Positions 5,769 to 50,506 of a stretch of 64,000 nt of DNA are shown here, piece after piece. This DNA is from Nibricoccus aquaticus (GTDB lineage: Bacteria; Verrucomicrobiota; Verrucomicrobiia; Opitutales; Opitutaceae). Each line of letters opens with the position of its first letter. Position 1 is the stretch's first letter. Position numbers and translations under genes: made by a program. Under the pieces are notes generated by a model. It did no database searches. It was not told the origin of the DNA and saw only the letters and a list, made by a program, of their open reading frames with translations. The stretch is from NCBI RefSeq assembly GCF_002310495.1, contig NZ_CP023344.1:1860001-1924000 (forward strand). The letters run 5' to 3'.

Positions 5769-7754
5769 ATGCGCCTCGCTTCCCTGCTCTTCCTCGCCCT
5801 CGTAATCACGCTCGTCGCACCTGCCGTCAAAGCCGCCGCCGCACTCGAAAAACCGCTGCTAAGTCCCGTCTTCACCGACCACATGGTCCTGCAACGCGAT
5901 CGCCCCAACACCTTCTGGGGCTGGGCCGCTCCGGGCGAAAAAATCCACATCGCCATCGGCTCACACTCCGCAACCGCTCATGCCGCGTCCGACGGCCGCT
6001 GGGAAACACAGCTCACACCACCACCCGGGAACACCGCCAGTCCATGCACCCTTGTAGTTGAAACACCCCTTCAACGCACCGAACTCCGCGACCTCCTCGT
6101 CGGCGACATCTGGCTCTGCGGCGGCCAGTCCAACATGGATTTCCCCCTCGCCGACTCGCAAAACGGCTCATCCGAAATCACCGCCGCCAACCATCCAAAC
6201 ATCCGCTTCTTAAAAATCCCTCAACGCGCACGCTATTCCCCCGCATCTCTTCCTGAATCCCACTGGCAAGCCTGCACGCCCGCCAACGCTCGCGCCTCTG
6301 GCCTCTCCGCCGTCGCCTACTTTTTCGCGCGCAAAGTCCACGCCGACACCGGAGTTCCCATCGGCATCGTCCAGGCCGCCGTCGGCGGCTCGCCCGCCGA
6401 AGCCTGGATAAGCGAAGACGCGCTCCAGCCATTTCCCGAATTCCGCCCTCACCTCGCCGAGCTCGCCCGACTCCGCGCCTCCGCCGCTCCCGAGTACGGC
6501 AACTTCATCATGCATTGGTACGACCGCTACGACACCGGCTCTCTCAACTCCCCCTGGGCGCAACCGTCCCTCGACGACTCCGCGTGGAAACCCGTCGCAG
6601 TCCCCGGCGCCTTTCCCGCGCTCGCTCTCTCCGACGTTCCCGCCGTCGTCTGGCTCCGCCGCGAAATCACCCTTCCCGATCCGCTCCCGCCAGGCGGCGC
6701 ACACCTCCATCTCGGTTCAGTGGAAAAAATGGATACCGTCTTTCTCAACGGCCAGTGGATCGGCTCCAGCGCCTGGGTGGAAAATCCACGCATCTACAAA
6801 ATCCCCGCCGCCACTCTGAAACCCGGGAAAAATCTCCTCGCCCTCCGCATATTCAAAGTCACTTCCCTCGACGCCTTCCTCAGCCCGCCCGAAACACTCC
6901 AGCTCGTCCTCGGCGACAACACACGCTTTCCACTCGCCGGTGCCGCATGGAAAGCCGCCATCAGCGTCGATGCCCGCCCGCCCCACCCGCTTCCCCTCGG
7001 CTTCGAAAACTGGCCCGTCATGCCCACCGTGCTTCATCGCGGCATGATCGAGCCGCTCGCCCCGCTCACGATCCGCGGTGCGCTCTGGTATCAAGGCGAA
7101 GCCAACGCCAGCCGCGCCTTCCAATACCGCTCGCTCCTGCCCGCTCTCATCGCCGACTGGCGCCTCACCTTCCGCCAGCCGGAACTCCCCTTCTACATCG
7201 TCGGCCTCCCCGCCTTCATGCCCCGCCGCACCGAGCCCGTCGCTGAAGACTGGCCCGAACTCCGCGAATCCCAAGCCCTCACCGCACACACCGTTCCCCA
7301 CACCGGCCTCGCCGTCACCATCGACTCCGGCGAAGCCGACGACATCCACCCGAAGGATAAAAAAATCGTCGGCGAACGCCTCGCGCTGCTCGCCCTCAAC
7401 GATCTCTACGGGAAACAACTCGCCGCCCACGGCCCCGAGTTCGCCCGCGCCGATTTTCTCCCCGACGGACGCGTGTGCCTGCATTTCAACTACACCGCTG
7501 GCGGCCTCATCCAGCGCGGCGAAAAACTCACCGGCTTCGCCATCGCCGGCGCAGATCGCAAGTGGCACTGGGCCGATGCGACACTCGTCGGCGACACCGT
7601 GATCGTCTCCTCGCCCGACGCGCCGCACCCCGTTGCCGTCCGCCACGCCTGGCAGTCCAACCCCGCCGTCTCCCTCTTCAACACCGCCGGCCTCCCCGCC
7701 GTGCCCTTCCGCACCGACGACTGGCCCGGCATCACCCACCCCAGTCCGCGCTGA
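5769..7754 (+). CDS. Sialate O-acetylesterase-type (SASA family) carbohydrate esterase
   Basis: A secreted SGNH-fold esterase of the family that removes O-acetyl groups from sugars. Beside a GH10 xylanase, acetyl-xylan is the likelier substrate than sialic acid. It has 661 aa with an N-terminal signal peptide (MRLASLLFLALVITL...). FTDHMVLQRDRPNTFWGWA is the family's opening motif. The nucleophile serine is in CGGQSNMDF (Ser121), and a beta-sandwich insert (DSAWKPVAVPG...VFLNGQWIG) splits the catalytic domain. ALWYQGEANA and DDIHPKDK carry the later catalytic block including the His. Length and motif order match the family. The start at 5769 is the first ATG before the signal peptide. Substrate is inferred. 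Confidence 0.88.
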   Translation: MRLASLLFLALVITLVAPAVKAAAALEKPLLSPVFTDHMVLQRDRPNTFWGWAAPGEKIHIAIGSHSATAHAASDGRWETQLTPPPGNTASPCTLVVETPLQRTELRDLLVGDIWLCGGQSNMDFPLADSQNGSSEITAANHPNIRFLKIPQRARYSPASLPESHWQACTPANARASGLSAVAYFFARKVHADTGVPIGIVQAAVGGSPAEAWISEDALQPFPEFRPHLAELARLRASAAPEYGNFIMHWYDRYDTGSLNSPWAQPSLDDSAWKPVAVPGAFPALALSDVPAVVWLRREITLPDPLPPGGAHLHLGSVEKMDTVFLNGQWIGSSAWVENPRIYKIPAATLKPGKNLLALRIFKVTSLDAFLSPPETLQLVLGDNTRFPLAGAAWKAAISVDARPPHPLPLGFENWPVMPTVLHRGMIEPLAPLTIRGALWYQGEANASRAFQYRSLLPALIADWRLTFRQPELPFYIVGLPAFMPRRTEPVAEDWPELRESQALTAHTVPHTGLAVTIDSGEADDIHPKDKKIVGERLALLALNDLYGKQLAAHGPEFARADFLPDGRVCLHFNYTAGGLIQRGEKLTGFAIAGADRKWHWADATLVGDTVIVSSPDAPHPVAVRHAWQSNPAVSLFNTAGLPAVPFRTDDWPGITHPSPR

Positions 7755-25845: not shown

Positions 25846-32390
<6,545 letters not shown>

Positions 32391-32394
<4 letters not shown>

Positions 32395-43676: not shown

Positions 43677-44552
43677 ATGTCCGATTTCATCGCATCCACC
43701 CCCTCAGACGAAAAAGAATACGTTCTTTTCTGTGATGAGTCTGACCGCCACGGCGCTTTCTATTCCAACTTCTACGGAGGCGTACGCATACCAGCTTCTC
43801 GGTTATTATCGGTCGAACAAACCCTTCGTGAAAAGAAAACGCATCTCGGTTTAACCAGCGAAATCAAGTGGCAGAAAGTGGGCGCCGACGTAGTAGAACG
43901 ATACGAAGAATTTCTAGCCACGTTCTTCGACCAAATGGCGGCTGGGCGTCTCCACATGCGAGTCATGTTTACCCATAACACCCAAGTTGCCGTGGGCCTG
44001 TCGCGTGATCAGCAGGACCAGAGCTACTACCACCTCTACTATCAGTTTCTTAAACATAGTTTCGGTCTCGCCAGCATTCCGACCCACTCTGCTCCTCCTC
44101 GCTTACGCATATACCTCGATGAAATCGGCGACACCCGTGAACAAATCACCAAGTTCAAGGGCTACTTACTTGGACTCGCCGATATAAAGACCATCCGTCA
44201 CTCCGGCGGCATCGTCCTGGAGCCCAACTCTATTACCGAGGTCCGATCACACGATCATATCATCATGCAGGCACTCGATACCGTGCTCGGATCAATCACC
44301 TTCCGATTAAACGACAAACACCTGGAAAAATTGCCAGGCACACGTCGTCGCGGAAAGCGGACTATCGCCAAGGATCGGTTGCAGAAATTCATCCTAAGCC
44401 AGATCAAACGGGTCACCGGCAAGCTGCATTTCAACATCGGCATAAGCACGGGGAGATCAGCAAGTCCGGACGCCGCGTGGTCAGATCCTTACCTTCATTG
44501 GCAATTCGTGCCTAAAAACATTCAGATCAATAAGGCCTTCCACAAACGATGA
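43677..44552 (+). CDS. DUF3800-family protein
   Basis: 291 aa. The N-terminal VLFCDESDRHG and the later RIYLDEIGD fit the acidic motifs of DUF3800, a family with a proposed RNase H-like fold. Its members are often found near phage or defence genes; their biochemical role is not settled. Two conserved acidic clusters and HDHIIMQALDTVLGSI are visible. The gene is clearly richer in A/T than its neighbours (two 60-base lines count to 57% and 45% GC) and directly follows a tRNA gene. A compound palindrome lies just after the stop. All this suggests acquisition by transfer. No integrase or other mobile gene accompanies it. Confidence 0.8.
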   Translation: MSDFIASTPSDEKEYVLFCDESDRHGAFYSNFYGGVRIPASRLLSVEQTLREKKTHLGLTSEIKWQKVGADVVERYEEFLATFFDQMAAGRLHMRVMFTHNTQVAVGLSRDQQDQSYYHLYYQFLKHSFGLASIPTHSAPPRLRIYLDEIGDTREQITKFKGYLLGLADIKTIRHSGGIVLEPNSITEVRSHDHIIMQALDTVLGSITFRLNDKHLEKLPGTRRRGKRTIAKDRLQKFILSQIKRVTGKLHFNIGISTGRSASPDAAWSDPYLHWQFVPKNIQINKAFHKR

Positions 44553-44625: not shown

Positions 44626-44770
44626 CGAGACAACATCCGCTTTGTCGCTCGATTTGCAAGGCAATAGGCCTCCCGTGCCGCCTTCTCGGCCCGTACCTAC
44701 GACACATTTTCAGCGATCATCCCCACCTTTTGATTACGCAAACCTGCATCGCACATCGCCCCCGCCGCTC

Positions 44771-45718
44771 ATGAAAATCCTCATCACCGGCAGCTCCGGC
44801 TTCGTCGGCGGAGCCCTCTGCGCAAAATCCGTCGCCAACGGCTGGGACACCACCGGCCTCTCACGTCACGCCTCCGTAACCGGAAACTGGATAGCCGCCG
44901 ACCTCACCCGCCCGCTCACGCTCCCCGCCGGCTACCGCCCCGACGTCGTCGTCCACTGCGCCGCCCGCTCCTCGCCGTGGGGCACCGCCCGCGACTTCGA
45001 GCGCCAAAACATCGACGCCACCCGCCACGTGATCGACTTCTGCCGCCGCGCCGGAAGCCCCCACCTCATCTACATCTCCACCAGCGCCGTCCTCTACCGC
45101 AACGAGCACCAGCTCGCCATGAGCGAGGCCACGCCTCCCGCCGATCGTTTCCTTAACCACTACGCCCGCACCAAATTCGCCGGCGAAACCCTCGTCCAAA
45201 CCTACGCCGGCCCCTCCACGATCCTCCGCCCGCGCGCCATCTTCGGCCCCGGCGACACCGTGGTCTTTCCCCGCATCCTCCGCGCCGCCCGCGAGGGCAA
45301 ATTCCCCATCATTCACTCCGCCACGCCCGTGATGGCAGACCTCATCTACATCGACACCCTCATCGACTACATCATCCGCGTCATCGAACGCCGTGCCACC
45401 GGCCTCTTCCATCTGAGCAACAACCACCCGATCGCTCTCACCGCCTTTCTTCAAAACGTCTTCACCCGCCTCGACCTGCCCGCTCCGCGCCGCCGCATTC
45501 CCGTCTCCCGCGCCATGACCGCCGCCGCCTGCATCGAGACGCTCTACCGCCTCCTCCCATTCCTAGGCGAGCCCCCGATCACCCGCTTCGGCGTCTCCGT
45601 CTTCGCGTATTCGAAGACCATGGACGTCACCAAATCCCTCCGCAAACTCGGCACTCCCTCCGTCTCCCTCGACGAAGGCGTCGAGCGCTTCGTCCGCTGG
45701 CAAAAAGCGCAGCCATGA
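44771..45718 (+). CDS. NAD-dependent epimerase/dehydratase (SDR), first gene of the glycosyl/ketosynthase operon
   Basis: 315 aa extended short-chain dehydrogenase. It has the nucleotide-binding GSSGFVGG (residues 7-14) and VVHCAA. The active-site YISTSAV precedes the YxxxK pair (Tyr131, Lys135 in HYARTKFAGE). RPRAIFGPGD and LIYIDTLIDYI are typical of sugar-nucleotide epimerases and 3-beta-hydroxysteroid-type reductases. The frame is open upstream to 44642 but the Rossmann fold begins at 44771. It overlaps the next gene by ATGA. In this cluster it could reduce a keto intermediate made by the KAS III protein, or modify a sugar nucleotide; the sequence does not decide. Confidence 0.85.
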   Translation: MKILITGSSGFVGGALCAKSVANGWDTTGLSRHASVTGNWIAADLTRPLTLPAGYRPDVVVHCAARSSPWGTARDFERQNIDATRHVIDFCRRAGSPHLIYISTSAVLYRNEHQLAMSEATPPADRFLNHYARTKFAGETLVQTYAGPSTILRPRAIFGPGDTVVFPRILRAAREGKFPIIHSATPVMADLIYIDTLIDYIIRVIERRATGLFHLSNNHPIALTAFLQNVFTRLDLPAPRRRIPVSRAMTAAACIETLYRLLPFLGEPPITRFGVSVFAYSKTMDVTKSLRKLGTPSVSLDEGVERFVRWQKAQP

Positions 45719-46869
45719 CCGCTTCGCTCGTGATCGCTGCCGCCTACCTCGGCCAGCTCACCCTCAAAGCCCTCCTCGCCTCGCGCTACGCCCGCCACAC
45801 GCGCCACCTCCCCGCCACGCCCGCTTCTGCCACTACGCCCGTCTCCATTCTCCAACCCATCCTCAGCGGCGACCCGCAACTCGCATCCACACTCGAATCC
45901 AATCGCCACACTTTCCCCACCGCGCACTTCCTCTGGCTAATCGACGAAACCGACCCTGAGGCCACGCTCATCTGCGAAAACCTCGCGTCCCGCTTTCCCG
46001 CTCAACCCATCCACGTCCTCCGTTGCGCTCCCCCACCCCAAGGCATCAACCCCAAAGCCCACAAGCTCGCCCTCGCCCTTCCGCTCGTCACGACATCAGT
46101 GTTCGTCGTCCTCGACGACGACACCCGCCTCTCCCCCGCCGGACTCACCGCCCTCATCGGCGGTCTCGACTCCGGCGCTACACTCGCCACCGGCCTCCCC
46201 CGCTATCACGCCGCAAACGGTCGCTTCAGCCCCTGGCTCGCCGAGTTCGTCAACTCCGCCGCCGTCCTCACCTACCTGCCCGCGCTCGCCGTCAGTCCGC
46301 CCGTCTCCATCCACGGCATGTGCTACGCCCTGCGCACCGCCGACGCCCGTCGCCTCAACGTATTCGAAACCATATCACGCGCCCTCACCGACGACCTCGC
46401 CCTCGCAGTGGAACTCCAGCGCCACGGCCTGAAAATCCACCAGACCATCGAACCCCACGACATCGCCACCTCAGTCCCGTCTTTCTCCGCGCTCCTGCAC
46501 ATCTTGCATCGCTGGTTCCTCTTCACGCGCCTGCTCCTCACCGCCTGCCCGCTCTCCCAAAAAATCGGGATCTCCGCCGCCTACGCACTTCCCCCGTTCC
46601 TCCTGATTACCCTCACCGCACTCGCCTTCACCTCGTGGTCCGCCGCGCTCGTTCTCACCGCTACACTCCTTCTTCGCGAAGTCGTCCTCGCCACCGTCAC
46701 CCGCCAATTTCTCGGCCGCGCCACCTCCTCCCGTCGCGAACCCTTCGCCTCCGCCCTCCTCGAAATCGCCCAGCCCGCCTTCCTCCTCGCCGCCACGCTC
46801 CACACCACTATCCGCTGGCGCACCCGCACGATCCGCGTCCGCTCCGTCACTGACTTCGAGTACCTATGA
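45715..46869 (+). CDS. GT21-like membrane glycosyltransferase (glucosylceramide synthase type)
   Basis: 384 aa. It has an N-terminal membrane segment and a GT-A catalytic domain. The metal-binding VVLDDDTRLSP (Asp134-136), the second block LTDDLALAVELQRHG (Asp226-227) and HRWFLFTR (residues 265-272, the QxxRW position) match the processive GT2/GT21 pattern. At least two membrane segments follow (ISAAYALPPFLLITLTALAF, ALLEIAQPAFLLAATL). The nearest family with this arrangement is ceramide glucosyltransferase/HpnI-like, which puts a sugar on a lipid at the membrane. Acceptor and donor here are unknown. It overlaps both neighbours by four bases. Confidence 0.85.
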   Translation: MTASLVIAAAYLGQLTLKALLASRYARHTRHLPATPASATTPVSILQPILSGDPQLASTLESNRHTFPTAHFLWLIDETDPEATLICENLASRFPAQPIHVLRCAPPPQGINPKAHKLALALPLVTTSVFVVLDDDTRLSPAGLTALIGGLDSGATLATGLPRYHAANGRFSPWLAEFVNSAAVLTYLPALAVSPPVSIHGMCYALRTADARRLNVFETISRALTDDLALAVELQRHGLKIHQTIEPHDIATSVPSFSALLHILHRWFLFTRLLLTACPLSQKIGISAAYALPPFLLITLTALAFTSWSAALVLTATLLLREVVLATVTRQFLGRATSSRREPFASALLEIAQPAFLLAATLHTTIRWRTRTIRVRSVTDFEYL

Positions 46870-47459
46870 AGCCCGCGCTCACCATCGCCTTCTTCACCGG
46901 CCAAAGCGCCCCCGGCCACTGCGCGCTCAGCCCCGAACAGGAAAACTTCCTCGCCCTCCTCGCCGCTCCCACCGGTGAAAATTCCTTCAACCGCCTCCTG
47001 CTCAACTTTCCCTACATCCCCGATTCCCGCCCCTTCCGCGACACCCCGCTGCTCCGCGCCTCCTGGAATAACCTCCTCGGCTACGCCCGCTCGCGCCGTC
47101 CGTCCTTTATTCTCAACTACCGCCCTTCCGTCTTCGCCGCGATCGCGCGCGCCACCCACACCATCTTCCTCGCCGGCAGCTCCGGCCTCGAACTTTTCAA
47201 CAACCTCGATCTCCCCGAATCCGCCGAGCGCCGCTGCACGTTGATCTGCTACGGCCCTATCGCACGACGTCTCCCGCGCCACGCCACCACCATCATCGTC
47301 CAGGGCTCCCGCGACTTTCTTTCCCGCGCACTCTTCCGCCATCCCGCGCTCACCGTGCGCTGCAACCACCTCGGCTACCTGCGCGATCCCGCGTTCCTCC
47401 GCATCTGCCAGGAACAACTCGCCAAACTCTCCCCGTCATGCTCCAGCATTTCCGCATAA
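46866..47459 (+). CDS. Unknown protein in the glycosyl/ketosynthase operon
   Basis: 197 aa, not recognised. It starts with a beta-strand-like TIAFFTGQSAP, has SFNRLLLNFPYIPDSRPF, and a central TIFLAGSSGLELFNNL. A Rossmann- or alpha/beta-like alternation continues (TLICYGPIARRL, TIIVQGSRDFLSRAL, VRCNHLGYL). The GSSGLELF segment looks like a GxSxG-related elbow but a full catalytic triad is not evident. No signal peptide or membrane segment is seen. Its ATG overlaps the glycosyltransferase stop, and its last 22 bases overlap the ketosynthase, so it is firmly part of the operon. Confidence 0.7.
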   Translation: MKPALTIAFFTGQSAPGHCALSPEQENFLALLAAPTGENSFNRLLLNFPYIPDSRPFRDTPLLRASWNNLLGYARSRRPSFILNYRPSVFAAIARATHTIFLAGSSGLELFNNLDLPESAERRCTLICYGPIARRLPRHATTIIVQGSRDFLSRALFRHPALTVRCNHLGYLRDPAFLRICQEQLAKLSPSCSSISA

Positions 47460-48418
47460 CCGGTTCCGCTCGCTATCTGCCCGGCCACAAAATCGAGTCC
47501 GAGGAACTCGACGCCCGTCTCGGCTTTCCCCGCGGCACCACGTTCGCCCGCACCGGCGTGCAAACCCGTCACCAAGCGCTCGCTCCCGAAAACGCCGCTA
47601 CCATGGCGAAACGCGTCATCGAAGATGCCCTCGCTTCCGCCCGCACCGATCTCTCCGGCATCGATCTCCTCATCGACGCCAGCCTCTGCCTCCAGCAACC
47701 CATTCCCTGCAACGCCGCCCTCATTCAGGAAGCCCTCGGCCCCGCCGCCGCTGGCATCCCATGCATGGATACACACGCCAGTTGCCTCGGTTTCTTCGCC
47801 GCCCTTCGCACCGTCAACGGCCTCTTCGCCAGCGAATCCCTCCGCCGCATCGTCGTCGTCTGCTCGGAAACCTCCCTCCTCGGCGTCAACTGGTCCGAAC
47901 CCGAGAGCGCCTGCCTCATGGGCGACGGCGCCGCCGCCTTGGTCTTCGAGCGCAACCCGTCTCCCACTCCGTGCGCGCTCGCCATGGAAACCTTCGCCGA
48001 GGGCGCGCACCTCTGCGAAGTCGCCGGCGGCGGACACCGCCTGCCTTCCTACGCCTTCAACAAAGCCATCGAGTCCCGCTACCGCTTCCGTATGGACGGC
48101 AAAGCCCTCCACAAACTCGCCAGCCGCCACCTCCCCGCGCTCGTCCAGCGCGTCCTCCGCGACGCCAACTGTTCCCCCACCGAACTCGACGTCGTCCCCC
48201 ACCAGGCCTCAGGTCCCGCCATCGAATTGATCGCCCGCCGCCTCGATATCCCGCGCGAGCGTTTCCACGTCTCGATCTCCGAACACGGCAACCTCGTCTC
48301 CGCCTCCATCCCGTTCGTCCTGCACAAAGTCCGCCAGGAAAAGCCCGCCGGCTCCCGTATCCTTCTACTGGGCACCGCCGCCGGTTACACTCAGGCCGCC
48401 GGAGTCATCACGCTGTGA
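47438..48418 (+). CDS. 3-oxoacyl-ACP synthase III-like ketosynthase
   Basis: 326 aa thiolase-fold condensing enzyme. The catalytic triad is complete: Cys116 in DTHASCLGF, His255 in VPHQASGP and Asn285 in SEHGNLVSASIP. The GDGAAALVF block is conserved. Its length fits FabH, but the context (no fab genes; glycosyltransferases and a hydrolase instead) suggests a specialised role, such as starting or joining acyl chains as FabH- and OleA-type enzymes do. It overlaps the previous gene by 22 bases and the next by GTGA. Whether it uses ACP or CoA substrates cannot be read from the sequence. Confidence 0.88.
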   Translation: MLQHFRITGSARYLPGHKIESEELDARLGFPRGTTFARTGVQTRHQALAPENAATMAKRVIEDALASARTDLSGIDLLIDASLCLQQPIPCNAALIQEALGPAAAGIPCMDTHASCLGFFAALRTVNGLFASESLRRIVVVCSETSLLGVNWSEPESACLMGDGAAALVFERNPSPTPCALAMETFAEGAHLCEVAGGGHRLPSYAFNKAIESRYRFRMDGKALHKLASRHLPALVQRVLRDANCSPTELDVVPHQASGPAIELIARRLDIPRERFHVSISEHGNLVSASIPFVLHKVRQEKPAGSRILLLGTAAGYTQAAGVITL

Positions 48419-49236
48419 GCCTGCGCGTCCACTTCCTCAACGGCGGACACTGCCGCCACCTGCTCGCCTCCATCGACGGCCGCACCTTCCGCACCGTCCA
48501 ATTCCACGCCGTCCTGCTCGCCATCGAGCACCCATCCCTCGGCTGGATCGTTTGCGACACCGGCTACGGCGGCCGCTTCCTCGCCGCCACCAGCGCCTTC
48601 CCCTCTCGCCTCTATCGCTGGGCCACGCCCGTCTCCGACAACCTTCCCGCCACATCCGCCCTCGCCCGCATCGGCCTGCATCCCGCCGACATCCGCCACC
48701 TCATCATCACCCATTTTCACGCCGACCACATCGGCGGCCTCCGCGACTTCCCCCAAGCCCGCGTCTATTTCCACGAACACGCTCTCGCTCCCCTCCTTGC
48801 ATTAAAACCCTTCCGCCAAACCCGCGCCGCCTTCCTCCCGAGTTTGCTCCCCGACGACCTCGCCTCTCGCAGCCACATCCTCCCCGACTCCGCCTTCCTC
48901 CCCGACGCCCGCCTTCCGTTCCGCAGCTGCGACCTTTTGGGCGACAGCCTGCTCAAAGCCGTCTTCCTCCCCGGCCACGCCCCCGGCCAGATCGGTCTCG
49001 AATTCACCGATACCGCCGCGCGCGAGCGCCCCACGCTCTACTGCGCCGACGCCTTCTGGCGCTCCGAACAACTGCTCAACAATATCAACCTCCCGCGTCT
49101 CACCCGCTCGCTCCAGTGGGACGGCCCCTCCTATCTCTCCACGATCAATCACCTCCGCACGCTCGCTCGCGCCGACACCCACCGCCTCCTCGCCTGCCAC
49201 GACGATATCACCCAACGCCATGTCGCGCCGTCTTAA
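48415..49236 (+). CDS. Metallo-beta-lactamase-fold hydrolase
   Basis: 273 aa. It has the zinc motif THFHADHIGG (His100, His102, Asp104, His105), then a later PGHAPGQIG with a further metal His and a CADAF Asp. The closing CHDD segment is also typical. It starts at a GTG overlapping the ketosynthase stop by four bases; the frame is open upstream, but that part overlaps the ketosynthase out of frame. The overall pattern resembles lactonase- or thioesterase-type members. In this operon it may release or open an acyl or lactone product; this is inference. Confidence 0.87.
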   Translation: MSLRVHFLNGGHCRHLLASIDGRTFRTVQFHAVLLAIEHPSLGWIVCDTGYGGRFLAATSAFPSRLYRWATPVSDNLPATSALARIGLHPADIRHLIITHFHADHIGGLRDFPQARVYFHEHALAPLLALKPFRQTRAAFLPSLLPDDLASRSHILPDSAFLPDARLPFRSCDLLGDSLLKAVFLPGHAPGQIGLEFTDTAARERPTLYCADAFWRSEQLLNNINLPRLTRSLQWDGPSYLSTINHLRTLARADTHRLLACHDDITQRHVAPS

Positions 49237-50506
49237 GATCGACCTCGTCGCGCCTCCGTTCGAGGGCCACCTCCACCCGATCCTCGGCCTCGCCCGCATC
49301 CTCCGCGAATACGCCGACATCCGCATCTTCTCCACCCCCGACGCCGCCACCCGCGTCGCCGACGCCGGTTTTCAACTACACCCGATCCTCGCCGCCCACG
49401 CGCGCGCCGTTTGGAGCATCCCCAACACCACCCGCCCCGTCCGCGGCCGCCCCTGGATGCTCCTCCAGCAATTCCGCCAAAACCTCCGCCTCCTCCCCGA
49501 TCTCCGCCGCGAAATCTCCGCCGCCTGGGCAACACATCCGCCCGACCTCGCCATCGTCGATTTCACGCTCCCCAGCGTCGGCCACTGGGCCCGCGAGCGC
49601 GGCATCCGCTGGTGGACTTCACACCCGTCCCCACTCGCCATCGAGACACCCGACGGCACCCCAACCTACCTCGGCGGCTGGCTCCCACCCGCGACCCTCC
49701 TCGGCAAAATCCGCGACGCCTCCGCCCGCAAAACCATCCACCTCTTCAAACGCGCGATGTTCCTCACCCACGCGCGCCCGCTCCGCGCCATCGGCCTCGA
49801 CCGCATTTACCGCTCCGACGGCTCCGAAAACGTTTACTCCGACGACATCATCCTCGCCCTAGGCTCCGCCGCCCTCGAATTCCCCGCCACCTGGCCCCGC
49901 GCCGTCCGCTTCATCGGCCCGTCCTGCTACACGCCACCCCCACGCGACGACGTCCCGCTCAGCCTCGATCCGTCCCGCAAAAACGTCCTCGTCACTCTCG
50001 GCACACACCTTCCCTACACGCGCCGCCAGCTCCTCTCGCTCCTCCCAGTCTGGGCCGCACAAATGCCCGACATCTTCTTCCACTACACCACCGGCGGGAA
50101 ACAAAACACCGGCCACTCCGCCCCCACATCTTCATCCGCCTCCACTGAACTCCCCTCCGGCCCCAACTGGAAAACCTACCGCTACCTGCACTACGACTCC
50201 GCGGTCTCGCGCTTCGACGCCGTCATCCACCACGGCGGTGCCGGCATCGTCTACCACACGCTCAACGCCGCCCTCTCCGCCGTCGTCTGGCCGCAAGACT
50301 ACGACCAGTTCGATTTCGCCGCCCGCCTCGCCCACCACGGCCTCGCCCTCCGTTGCTCCCACCCGCGCCAGATTCCCACCGCCCTCCGCCGCATCCTCAC
50401 CGAGCCCGGCTCCCGCGAACGCGCGGCATTCTTCGCCCGCGATCTCCACCAGATCGATCAACCCGCTCTCCTGAAAAACCTCCTGCACGAACGCGGCCTG
50501 CTCTAA
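49220..50506 (+). CDS. GT1-like glycosyltransferase (UDP-glycosyltransferase fold)
   Basis: 428 aa GT-B enzyme. The N-terminus IDLVAPPFEGHLHPILGLARIL has the catalytic His of the family. The C-terminal donor-binding region has VLVTLGTHLPY, WKTYRYLHYDS and VIHHGGAGIVYHTLNAAL, then VVWPQDYDQFDFAARL, matching the nucleotide-sugar-binding signature. Such enzymes glycosylate small lipophilic acceptors such as sterols, macrolides or carotenoids. It overlaps the hydrolase gene by 17 bases and closes the operon. The acceptor is probably the product of the upstream enzymes. Confidence 0.87.
   Translation: MSRRLKIDLVAPPFEGHLHPILGLARILREYADIRIFSTPDAATRVADAGFQLHPILAAHARAVWSIPNTTRPVRGRPWMLLQQFRQNLRLLPDLRREISAAWATHPPDLAIVDFTLPSVGHWARERGIRWWTSHPSPLAIETPDGTPTYLGGWLPPATLLGKIRDASARKTIHLFKRAMFLTHARPLRAIGLDRIYRSDGSENVYSDDIILALGSAALEFPATWPRAVRFIGPSCYTPPPRDDVPLSLDPSRKNVLVTLGTHLPYTRRQLLSLLPVWAAQMPDIFFHYTTGGKQNTGHSAPTSSSASTELPSGPNWKTYRYLHYDSAVSRFDAVIHHGGAGIVYHTLNAALSAVVWPQDYDQFDFAARLAHHGLALRCSHPRQIPTALRRILTEPGSRERAAFFARDLHQIDQPALLKNLLHERGLL

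Follow-up and report, generated by a model that had tools for sequence, protein, structure and literature searches.

Six overlapping open reading frames (ORFs) of Nibricoccus aquaticus (GCF_002310495.1, contig NZ_CP023344.1; the genome, G000, is one contig of 4.73 Mb) lie at positions 44771–50506 of a 64,000-nt stretch of DNA, the whole of which is here called the window. All six are on the + strand and constitute a biosynthetic operon, though not one conserved unit. Three of them encode a β-ketoacyl-acyl carrier protein (ACP) synthase III (KAS III), a short-chain dehydrogenase/reductase (SDR) and a metallo-β-lactamase (MBL)-fold hydrolase, which we refer to as the core; the other three, two glycosyltransferases (GTs) and a 197-aa protein, are accessory. 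In order, the genes are:

44771–45718, + strand: extended, NAD(P)-dependent SDR, OleD/NSDHL-like (PF01370, 7.6e-28); core gene
45715–46869, + strand: GT21-type membrane glycosyltransferase, ceramide glucosyltransferase/HpnI-like (PF13506, 4.4e-22); accessory
46866–47459, + strand: 197-aa protein, predicted from a structure model to be a minimal α/β-hydrolase with Ser105-Asp150-His168; accessory
47438–48418, + strand: KAS III, MxnB/CorB-like, with C116-H255-N285 (PF08541, ACP_syn_III_C, 6.4e-18; PF08545); core gene
48415–49236, + strand, GTG start: MBL-fold hydrolase with HxHxDH, like N-acylhomoserine lactone (AHL) lactonases and 4-pyridoxolactonase (PF00753, Lactamase_B, 8.5e-17); core gene
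49220–50506, + strand: GT1/GT28-type glycosyltransferase (PF04101, 4.2e-6; PF06722, 1.6e-6); accessory

The five junctions overlap by 4, 4, 22, 4 and 17 bases, and the ORF coordinates thereby confirm both the six overlapping frames and the overlap sizes claimed in the original prediction for this locus. Because of these overlaps, we infer that the six genes are co-transcribed; a sigma-70-like promoter was not detected in the operon region. The SDR frame is open upstream as far as a TTG at 44642, and the ATG at 44771 is the start that agrees with its homologues.

Conservation was assessed in a family set of 252 genomes, in which a carrier was defined by a KAS III match at E ≤ 1e-50. There are 13 carriers in the family and three among 387 genomes drawn from the phylum, the window's own genome being counted in each case. 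A search with the KAS III alignment also gave eight named loci, seven from Opitutaceae assemblies and one from Bacteroidetes. An MBL is present in all 13 carriers, against 3 of the 239 other family genomes (Fisher p = 2.9e-19, a value that ignores the kinship of the genomes). We read neighbourhoods spanning 13–35 kb for 11 carriers other than the window, together with a 3.5-kb contig of genome G653; the MBL of one locus (L053) was located by tblastn. In 12 of the 13 carriers, the window among them, the genes for KAS III, SDR and MBL form a single cluster, while in the thirteenth, G653, the contig ends within the KAS III gene just past the SDR and the MBL starts another contig. Within four of these clusters (G575, G576, G579 and G583), ATP-grasp, GNAT-like and Rieske genes on the opposite strand separate the SDR from the KAS III. 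The original prediction had taken all six genes for one conserved system, a view that is rejected, since the GT21, 197-aa and GT1 genes are missing from most carriers and the exact six-gene order recurs in only 2 of 13, the window and G729 (an assembly that is 78% complete and in which some operon frames are broken). What travels together is KAS III, SDR and MBL, and the conserved unit is this three-gene core.

The accessory genes vary between carriers. The GT21 gene is found in four of the 13 (window, G563, G575 and G729) and is restricted to this operon, with no match at E ≤ 1e-20 in the 239 other family genomes. A GT1 gene adjoins the core in three (window, G729 and G575, where it is cut by the contig end), and the 197-aa gene occurs in 2 of 252 family genomes, the window's and G729. 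In the KAS III tree described below, these last two genomes fall in two different sub-groups, each supported at 99/95, a split placement consistent either with repeated loss of an ancient GT cassette or with its transfer from one lineage to another. Eight carriers (G013, G325, G575, G576, G579, G583, G680 and G686) have ATP-grasp and GNAT-like genes next to the core, names that rest on weak Pfam matches, a PRK06849 match below its cut-off and similarity to annotated Paenibacillus genes; G575 is the one genome that holds both this cassette and the GT genes. PAP2 genes lie 3′ of the core in G013 and G563, and G325 and G591 have MMPL genes beside it.

At locus L052 (9171–18380) the genes that come after the core are of MMPL, SnoaL-like, cytochrome P450, Rieske and GT1 type, and this cluster seems to encode an elaborated form of the pathway. 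At L047 a Rieske oxygenase gene (5932–6957) adjoins the OleD-like SDR and has relatives in G575, G579 and G583; its best NCBIfam match is SdmA, a 4β-methylsterol monooxygenase (4.5e-19; 68.6 bits, where the cut-off is 600).

The core also occurs outside the phylum. In a plasmid collection, 29 records matched the KAS III at E ≤ 1e-30, of which seven, hand-picked from 20 listed, were opened and, with one Bacteroidetes locus, gave eight loci. All eight carry KAS III, SDR, MBL and an adenylate-forming (AMP-forming) enzyme in one run, in Ketogulonicigenium, Shinella, Pontibacillus, Paenibacillus, Escherichia coli, Paraburkholderia, Pseudomonas and a Bacteroidetes assembly, so that the core spans Opitutaceae, Bacteroidetes, Alpha-, Beta- and Gammaproteobacteria and Bacillota. 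In the seven plasmid records the adenylate-forming enzyme is annotated as ‘F390 synthetase-related’ (five), as ‘adenylate-forming enzyme’ (one) or not at all (one), and the E. coli copy matches TIGR02304 at 755 bits, where the cut-off is 252. D. psychrophila has been noted to carry a ligase annotated as F390 synthetase among clustered fatty-acid genes, with a supposed role in glycerol attachment (PMC2649909, from the part of the paper available). Three of the eight loci additionally hold an ATP-grasp gene (Pontibacillus, Paenibacillus and Paraburkholderia) and three a GNAT gene (Paenibacillus, Paraburkholderia and Shinella).

The E. coli form of the operon is exemplified by strain LF82 (L071, 8001–14882), where seven genes lie between narI and tRNA-Tyr genes. 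It shares the KAS III-SDR-MBL core with the window (33%, 27% and 29% identity for KAS III, SDR and MBL, respectively) but adds an AMP-forming ligase, PAP2, a sterol desaturase family protein and an acyl-CoA desaturase, and is without GTs. Of 5,426 complete E. coli genomes, 672 contain the core DNA of LF82, the asymptomatic strain 83972 among them, and in 670 of these records the match is 99% or more. By contrast with these loci, a search of the window genome gave no match to TIGR02304 or PRK06849, and none of the other 12 carriers has a TIGR02304 match above the cut-off, the single weak one being in G013 (52.5 bits). The missing adenylate-forming (OleC-like) partner is a trait of the window's lineage. 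The original prediction that the operon is without OleB/OleC-type partners holds for the six genes, among which there is no OleC β-lactone synthetase or OleB (the genome having been searched for TIGR02304, not for the OleB and OleC families), but not for the wider operon family, given the adenylate-forming enzyme at all eight loci outside the phylum.

The catalytic triad of the KAS III (C116, H255 and N285) is identical in 19 of 19 aligned copies, the window's included, in keeping with the full Cys-His-Asn set predicted originally; in CerJ, an Asp stands in place of the Asn. The best profile match in the PDB is MxnB (4v2p, 5.6e-59), followed by FabH (4ryb, 1.2e-58) and more distantly by OleA (3s23, 1.5e-19; identified as OleA in the available part of PMC5724707). 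The NCBIfam model PRK07204 matches both the window (276 bits) and E. coli (333 bits) copies, each below the cut-off of 402. We built a tree of 31 rows, comprising 19 operon KASs, MxnB, CorB and ten FabH sequences, with the Bacteroidetes row and the partial G653 copy left out. The operon KASs together with MxnB and CorB split from the FabH rows at 100/100, and a housekeeping FabH role for the operon enzyme is rejected on this split. The operon KASs form their own group beside MxnB and CorB, with weak support (83/72), and are not nested within the MxnB/CorB clade. A second KAS III gene of the window genome, at C1:575213, which lies outside the tree and is 30% identical, is presumably the housekeeping FabH.

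Kresovic et al. (PMC4578411, of which a part was available) describe an E105A substitution in PpyS that abolishes photopyrone production, and note that OleA has Glu (E117) and MxnB and CorB have Val (V94). Using CorB V94, which that part of the paper equates with PpyS E105, we located the corresponding column in our alignment, where the window has Ile89 and all 19 copies have Ile, Leu or Val. Because Ile replaces the catalytic Glu of OleA and PpyS as described there, an OleA-type reaction is unlikely, and membership of the OleA family was rejected on this position.

Both other core enzymes retain their catalytic residues. In the MBL, H100, H102, D104, H105, H188 and D212 are invariant in all 17 aligned copies; its best PDB matches are N-acylhomoserine lactonases, yet it falls below the NCBIfam cut-offs for AHL lactonases (AttM, AiiA, AidB and AhlS), with AttM the best at 52.2 bits against 390. 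A precedent for an MBL-fold thioesterase acting beside KAS III-type enzymes is PqsE. In the SDR, Tyr131 and Lys135 are likewise invariant (17/17). Its best NCBIfam match is OleD, a 2-alkyl-3-oxoalkanoate reductase (169 bits, below the cut-off of 580), and its best PDB profile match is a sterol-4-α-carboxylate 3-dehydrogenase (2.9e-41). OleD and sterol-4-carboxylate dehydrogenase act on β-keto or β-hydroxy acids, and we infer the same type of oxidoreductase here; since these relatives act on the free acids, hydrolysis before reduction is suggested.

The two GTs differ in how clearly they can be assigned. The GT21 product passes the Pfam cut-off for Glyco_transf_21 (78.8 bits against 21.7) and matches NCBIfam HpnI at 1.6e-21 (76.6 bits, below the cut-off of 310), while ceramide glucosyltransferase is its only match in the PDB up to an E of 0.01. 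Its D226-D227 and HRW motifs are conserved in four copies, one of them partial, and its C-terminal part is hydrophobic. The GT1-type product is above the cut-off for Glyco_tran_28_C (PF04101) and below that for EryCIII-like_C (PF06722), and its PDB matches, mostly to the C-terminal part, are a rhamnosyltransferase, GtfA and a sterol 3-β-glucosyltransferase.

By sequence, the 197-aa protein is as unrecognised as first stated: no Pfam family up to an E of 0.1, no sequence match in the PDB and, with the protein alone as query, no relative in the named genomes. Its sole relative found is encoded at the same operon position in G729 (36% identity), and the two share G12, A103-G104-S105-x-G107, D150 and H168. 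A model built from these two sequences (pLDDT 65.9, pTM 0.67) goes further, with a strand and helix order that reads as an α/β-hydrolase: Ser105 opens the helix after strand 98–103, Asp150 follows strand 141–147 and His168 follows 162–164. VIA-align matched the model mostly to lipases, cutinase, LCAT and thioesterases, at Z scores of 10.0–11.3 over 149–165 of the 197 residues, where models that lack a clear match often reach a best Z of 7–8 and the class of a few rows is not readable from the name. In plain Foldseek the top rows were azoreductases with a TM score of about 0.3 and a root mean square deviation of 10–13, and a lipase (2zys) ranked 24th with a TM score of 0.52. Judged by the VIA-align rows, the model makes it highly probable that the protein is a minimal α/β-hydrolase with Ser105-Asp150-His168 as its triad.

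Taken together, our preferred reading, to which we give a probability of roughly 0.42, is that the operon builds a glycosylated long-chain lipid through the KAS III, a hydrolase, the SDR and the GTs. The KAS III would condense an acyl thioester with malonyl-ACP, or with another activated β-carbonyl donor, to a β-ketoacyl thioester, with carriers drawn from general fatty-acid synthesis. The MBL hydrolase, perhaps with the small α/β-hydrolase, would free the acid from the thioester or open a lactone, and the OleD-like SDR would turn the β-keto group into a hydroxyl. The membrane GT21 and then the GT1 may add sugars to the hydroxy acid, or to a lipid derived from that acid, an order that is a guess. 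In relatives, the same core would feed an AMP-forming ligase, an ATP-grasp ligase and a GNAT-like transferase, and other lineages would reactivate the freed hydroxy acid through the AMP-forming ligase. This reading is favoured by the linkage of the core, the intact catalytic residues, a KAS III that retains Asn285 and stands apart from the FabH rows, the kinship of the SDR to OleD and sterol-4-carboxylate dehydrogenase, the restriction of the PDB matches of GT21 to ceramide glucosyltransferase and the confinement of GT21 to this operon in the family, and the lipid-type partners in relatives (PAP2, MMPL, and genes annotated as sterol desaturase and acyl-CoA desaturase) count in the same direction. 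The enzyme set is also compatible with the acyl product that the original prediction described as reduced, released or opened, and glycosylated.

Several observations weigh against this reading. The MBL is nearest to lactonases rather than to any known thioesterase, and the TIGR02304 search found no ligase in the window genome to reactivate a freed acid. Three genomes (G709, G710 and G711) have a relative of the MBL and no KAS III at E ≤ 1e-50. For two of them the relatives are 42–44% identical to the window MBL (L074, 9110–9958, in G709; L075, 4501–5301, in G711) and no KAS III or SDR was found in the stretches fetched around them; an MBL of this kind can therefore act alone. Lastly, the assignment of the GT1 is weak (1.6e-6 and 4.2e-6).

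A broader proposal, which we hold tentatively and at a little under even odds, is that the operons make a widespread, undescribed class of lipids or lipid-like compounds, in which a shared KAS III-SDR-MBL core receives its head groups from swappable cassettes: an amino-type cassette (AMP ligase, ATP-grasp and GNAT-like) in several phyla and a sugar-type cassette (GT21, α/β-hydrolase and GT1) in some Opitutaceae. Among the matches listed in our literature searches, no described pathway with this gene set turned up, as had been claimed from the outset, and the open-access matches listed held no description of this operon or of the E. coli narI/tRNA-Tyr operon. No paper in the open-access collection searched contained TIGR02304, PRK07204 or ‘F390 synthetase-related’. 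Subscription papers were mostly outside the scope of the search, and the absence of a published description is therefore weak evidence. The three-enzyme core extends across phyla and hundreds of E. coli genomes, and we found no product for it in print; a new lipid class, if real, would widen what is known of envelope or signal chemistry in bacteria. The window variant is the simpler case, having the core without a ligase, plus two GTs.

An alternative that we regard as unlikely is that the KAS III joins two chains in the manner of MxnB and CorB, giving an α-pyrone or lactone as the substrate for ring opening by the MBL and sugar transfer by the GTs. The 100/100 grouping with MxnB and CorB apart from the FabH rows is consistent with this, as are the best PDB match to MxnB, the lactonase-like MBL and the hydrophobic residue at the position of Val94, which in MxnB and CorB replaces the PpyS Glu (PMC4578411, available part). 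However, FabH scores nearly equal to MxnB, and MxnB and CorB stand outside the operon KAS group, which is itself supported only at 83/72. According to the part of PMC5724707 available, the substrates of MxnB are β-keto chains that a polyketide synthase pathway supplies, preferably bound to carrier proteins, whereas no polyketide synthase was found in the operon or in eight other scanned window proteins, the rest of the genome not having been searched. The SDR would also be unneeded for a pyrone.

We consider it improbable that the KAS III instead joins two fatty acyl chains without decarboxylation, as OleA does, with reduction leading to glycosylated, mycolate-like 2-alkyl-3-hydroxy acids. The OleD match of the SDR, the MMPL neighbours in G325 and G591 and the AMP-forming enzyme of the operons outside the phylum would all suit such a route, but OleA is a far weaker match to the KAS III than MxnB or FabH, and the Glu base reported as essential in PpyS (E105) in the available part of PMC4578411 is Ile, Leu or Val in every copy. 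Least probable is a CerJ-like role, in which the KAS III would transfer an acyl group to a sugar or alcohol and the operon would acylate a glycoside: acylation by ketosynthase enzymes has precedents (cited in the available part of PMC4578411) and the operon has two GTs, but the KAS III keeps the complete condensing-enzyme Cys-His-Asn set.

Elsewhere in the window, a DUF3800 protein is encoded directly upstream of the operon (43677–44552) and matches the PADLOC model PDC-M04A at 9.5e-22. At 25846–32394 lies the gene for a histidine kinase of 2,182 aa that has ten HAMP matches, one GAF domain and three receiver domains; a further hybrid kinase is encoded after it.

Among known systems, the operon resembles OleABCD in pairing a thiolase-fold KAS with an OleD-like SDR, and an AMP-forming enzyme is likewise found in the wider family of operons. 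OleB belongs to the α/β-hydrolase fold class, and the 197-aa protein is predicted to share this general fold class. The window operon differs in having an MBL hydrolase in the core and GTs, and in lacking the OleA-type Glu; the wider family's AMP-forming enzyme, which the window genome lacks, is TIGR02304-like (related to PaaK/F390). The original view that this is not the olefin pathway is supported in the sense that the operon departs from the known Ole pathway, the OleA-type Glu described in the available part of PMC4578411 being replaced. With MxnB and CorB, the operon shares a KAS III that has Cys-His-Asn and a hydrophobic residue at the Glu position, and that splits jointly with them from FabH; it differs in that there is no polyketide synthase in the operon, the partners being an SDR, an MBL and GTs. 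Rhamnolipids are β-hydroxyacyl lipids glycosylated by GT1-like enzymes, and the proposed β-hydroxyacyl lipid with GT1-like glycosylation would be similar in kind. Unlike rhamnolipid biosynthesis, the operon has no RhlA-type gene among its six and relies on a dedicated KAS III, SDR and MBL together with a membrane GT21.

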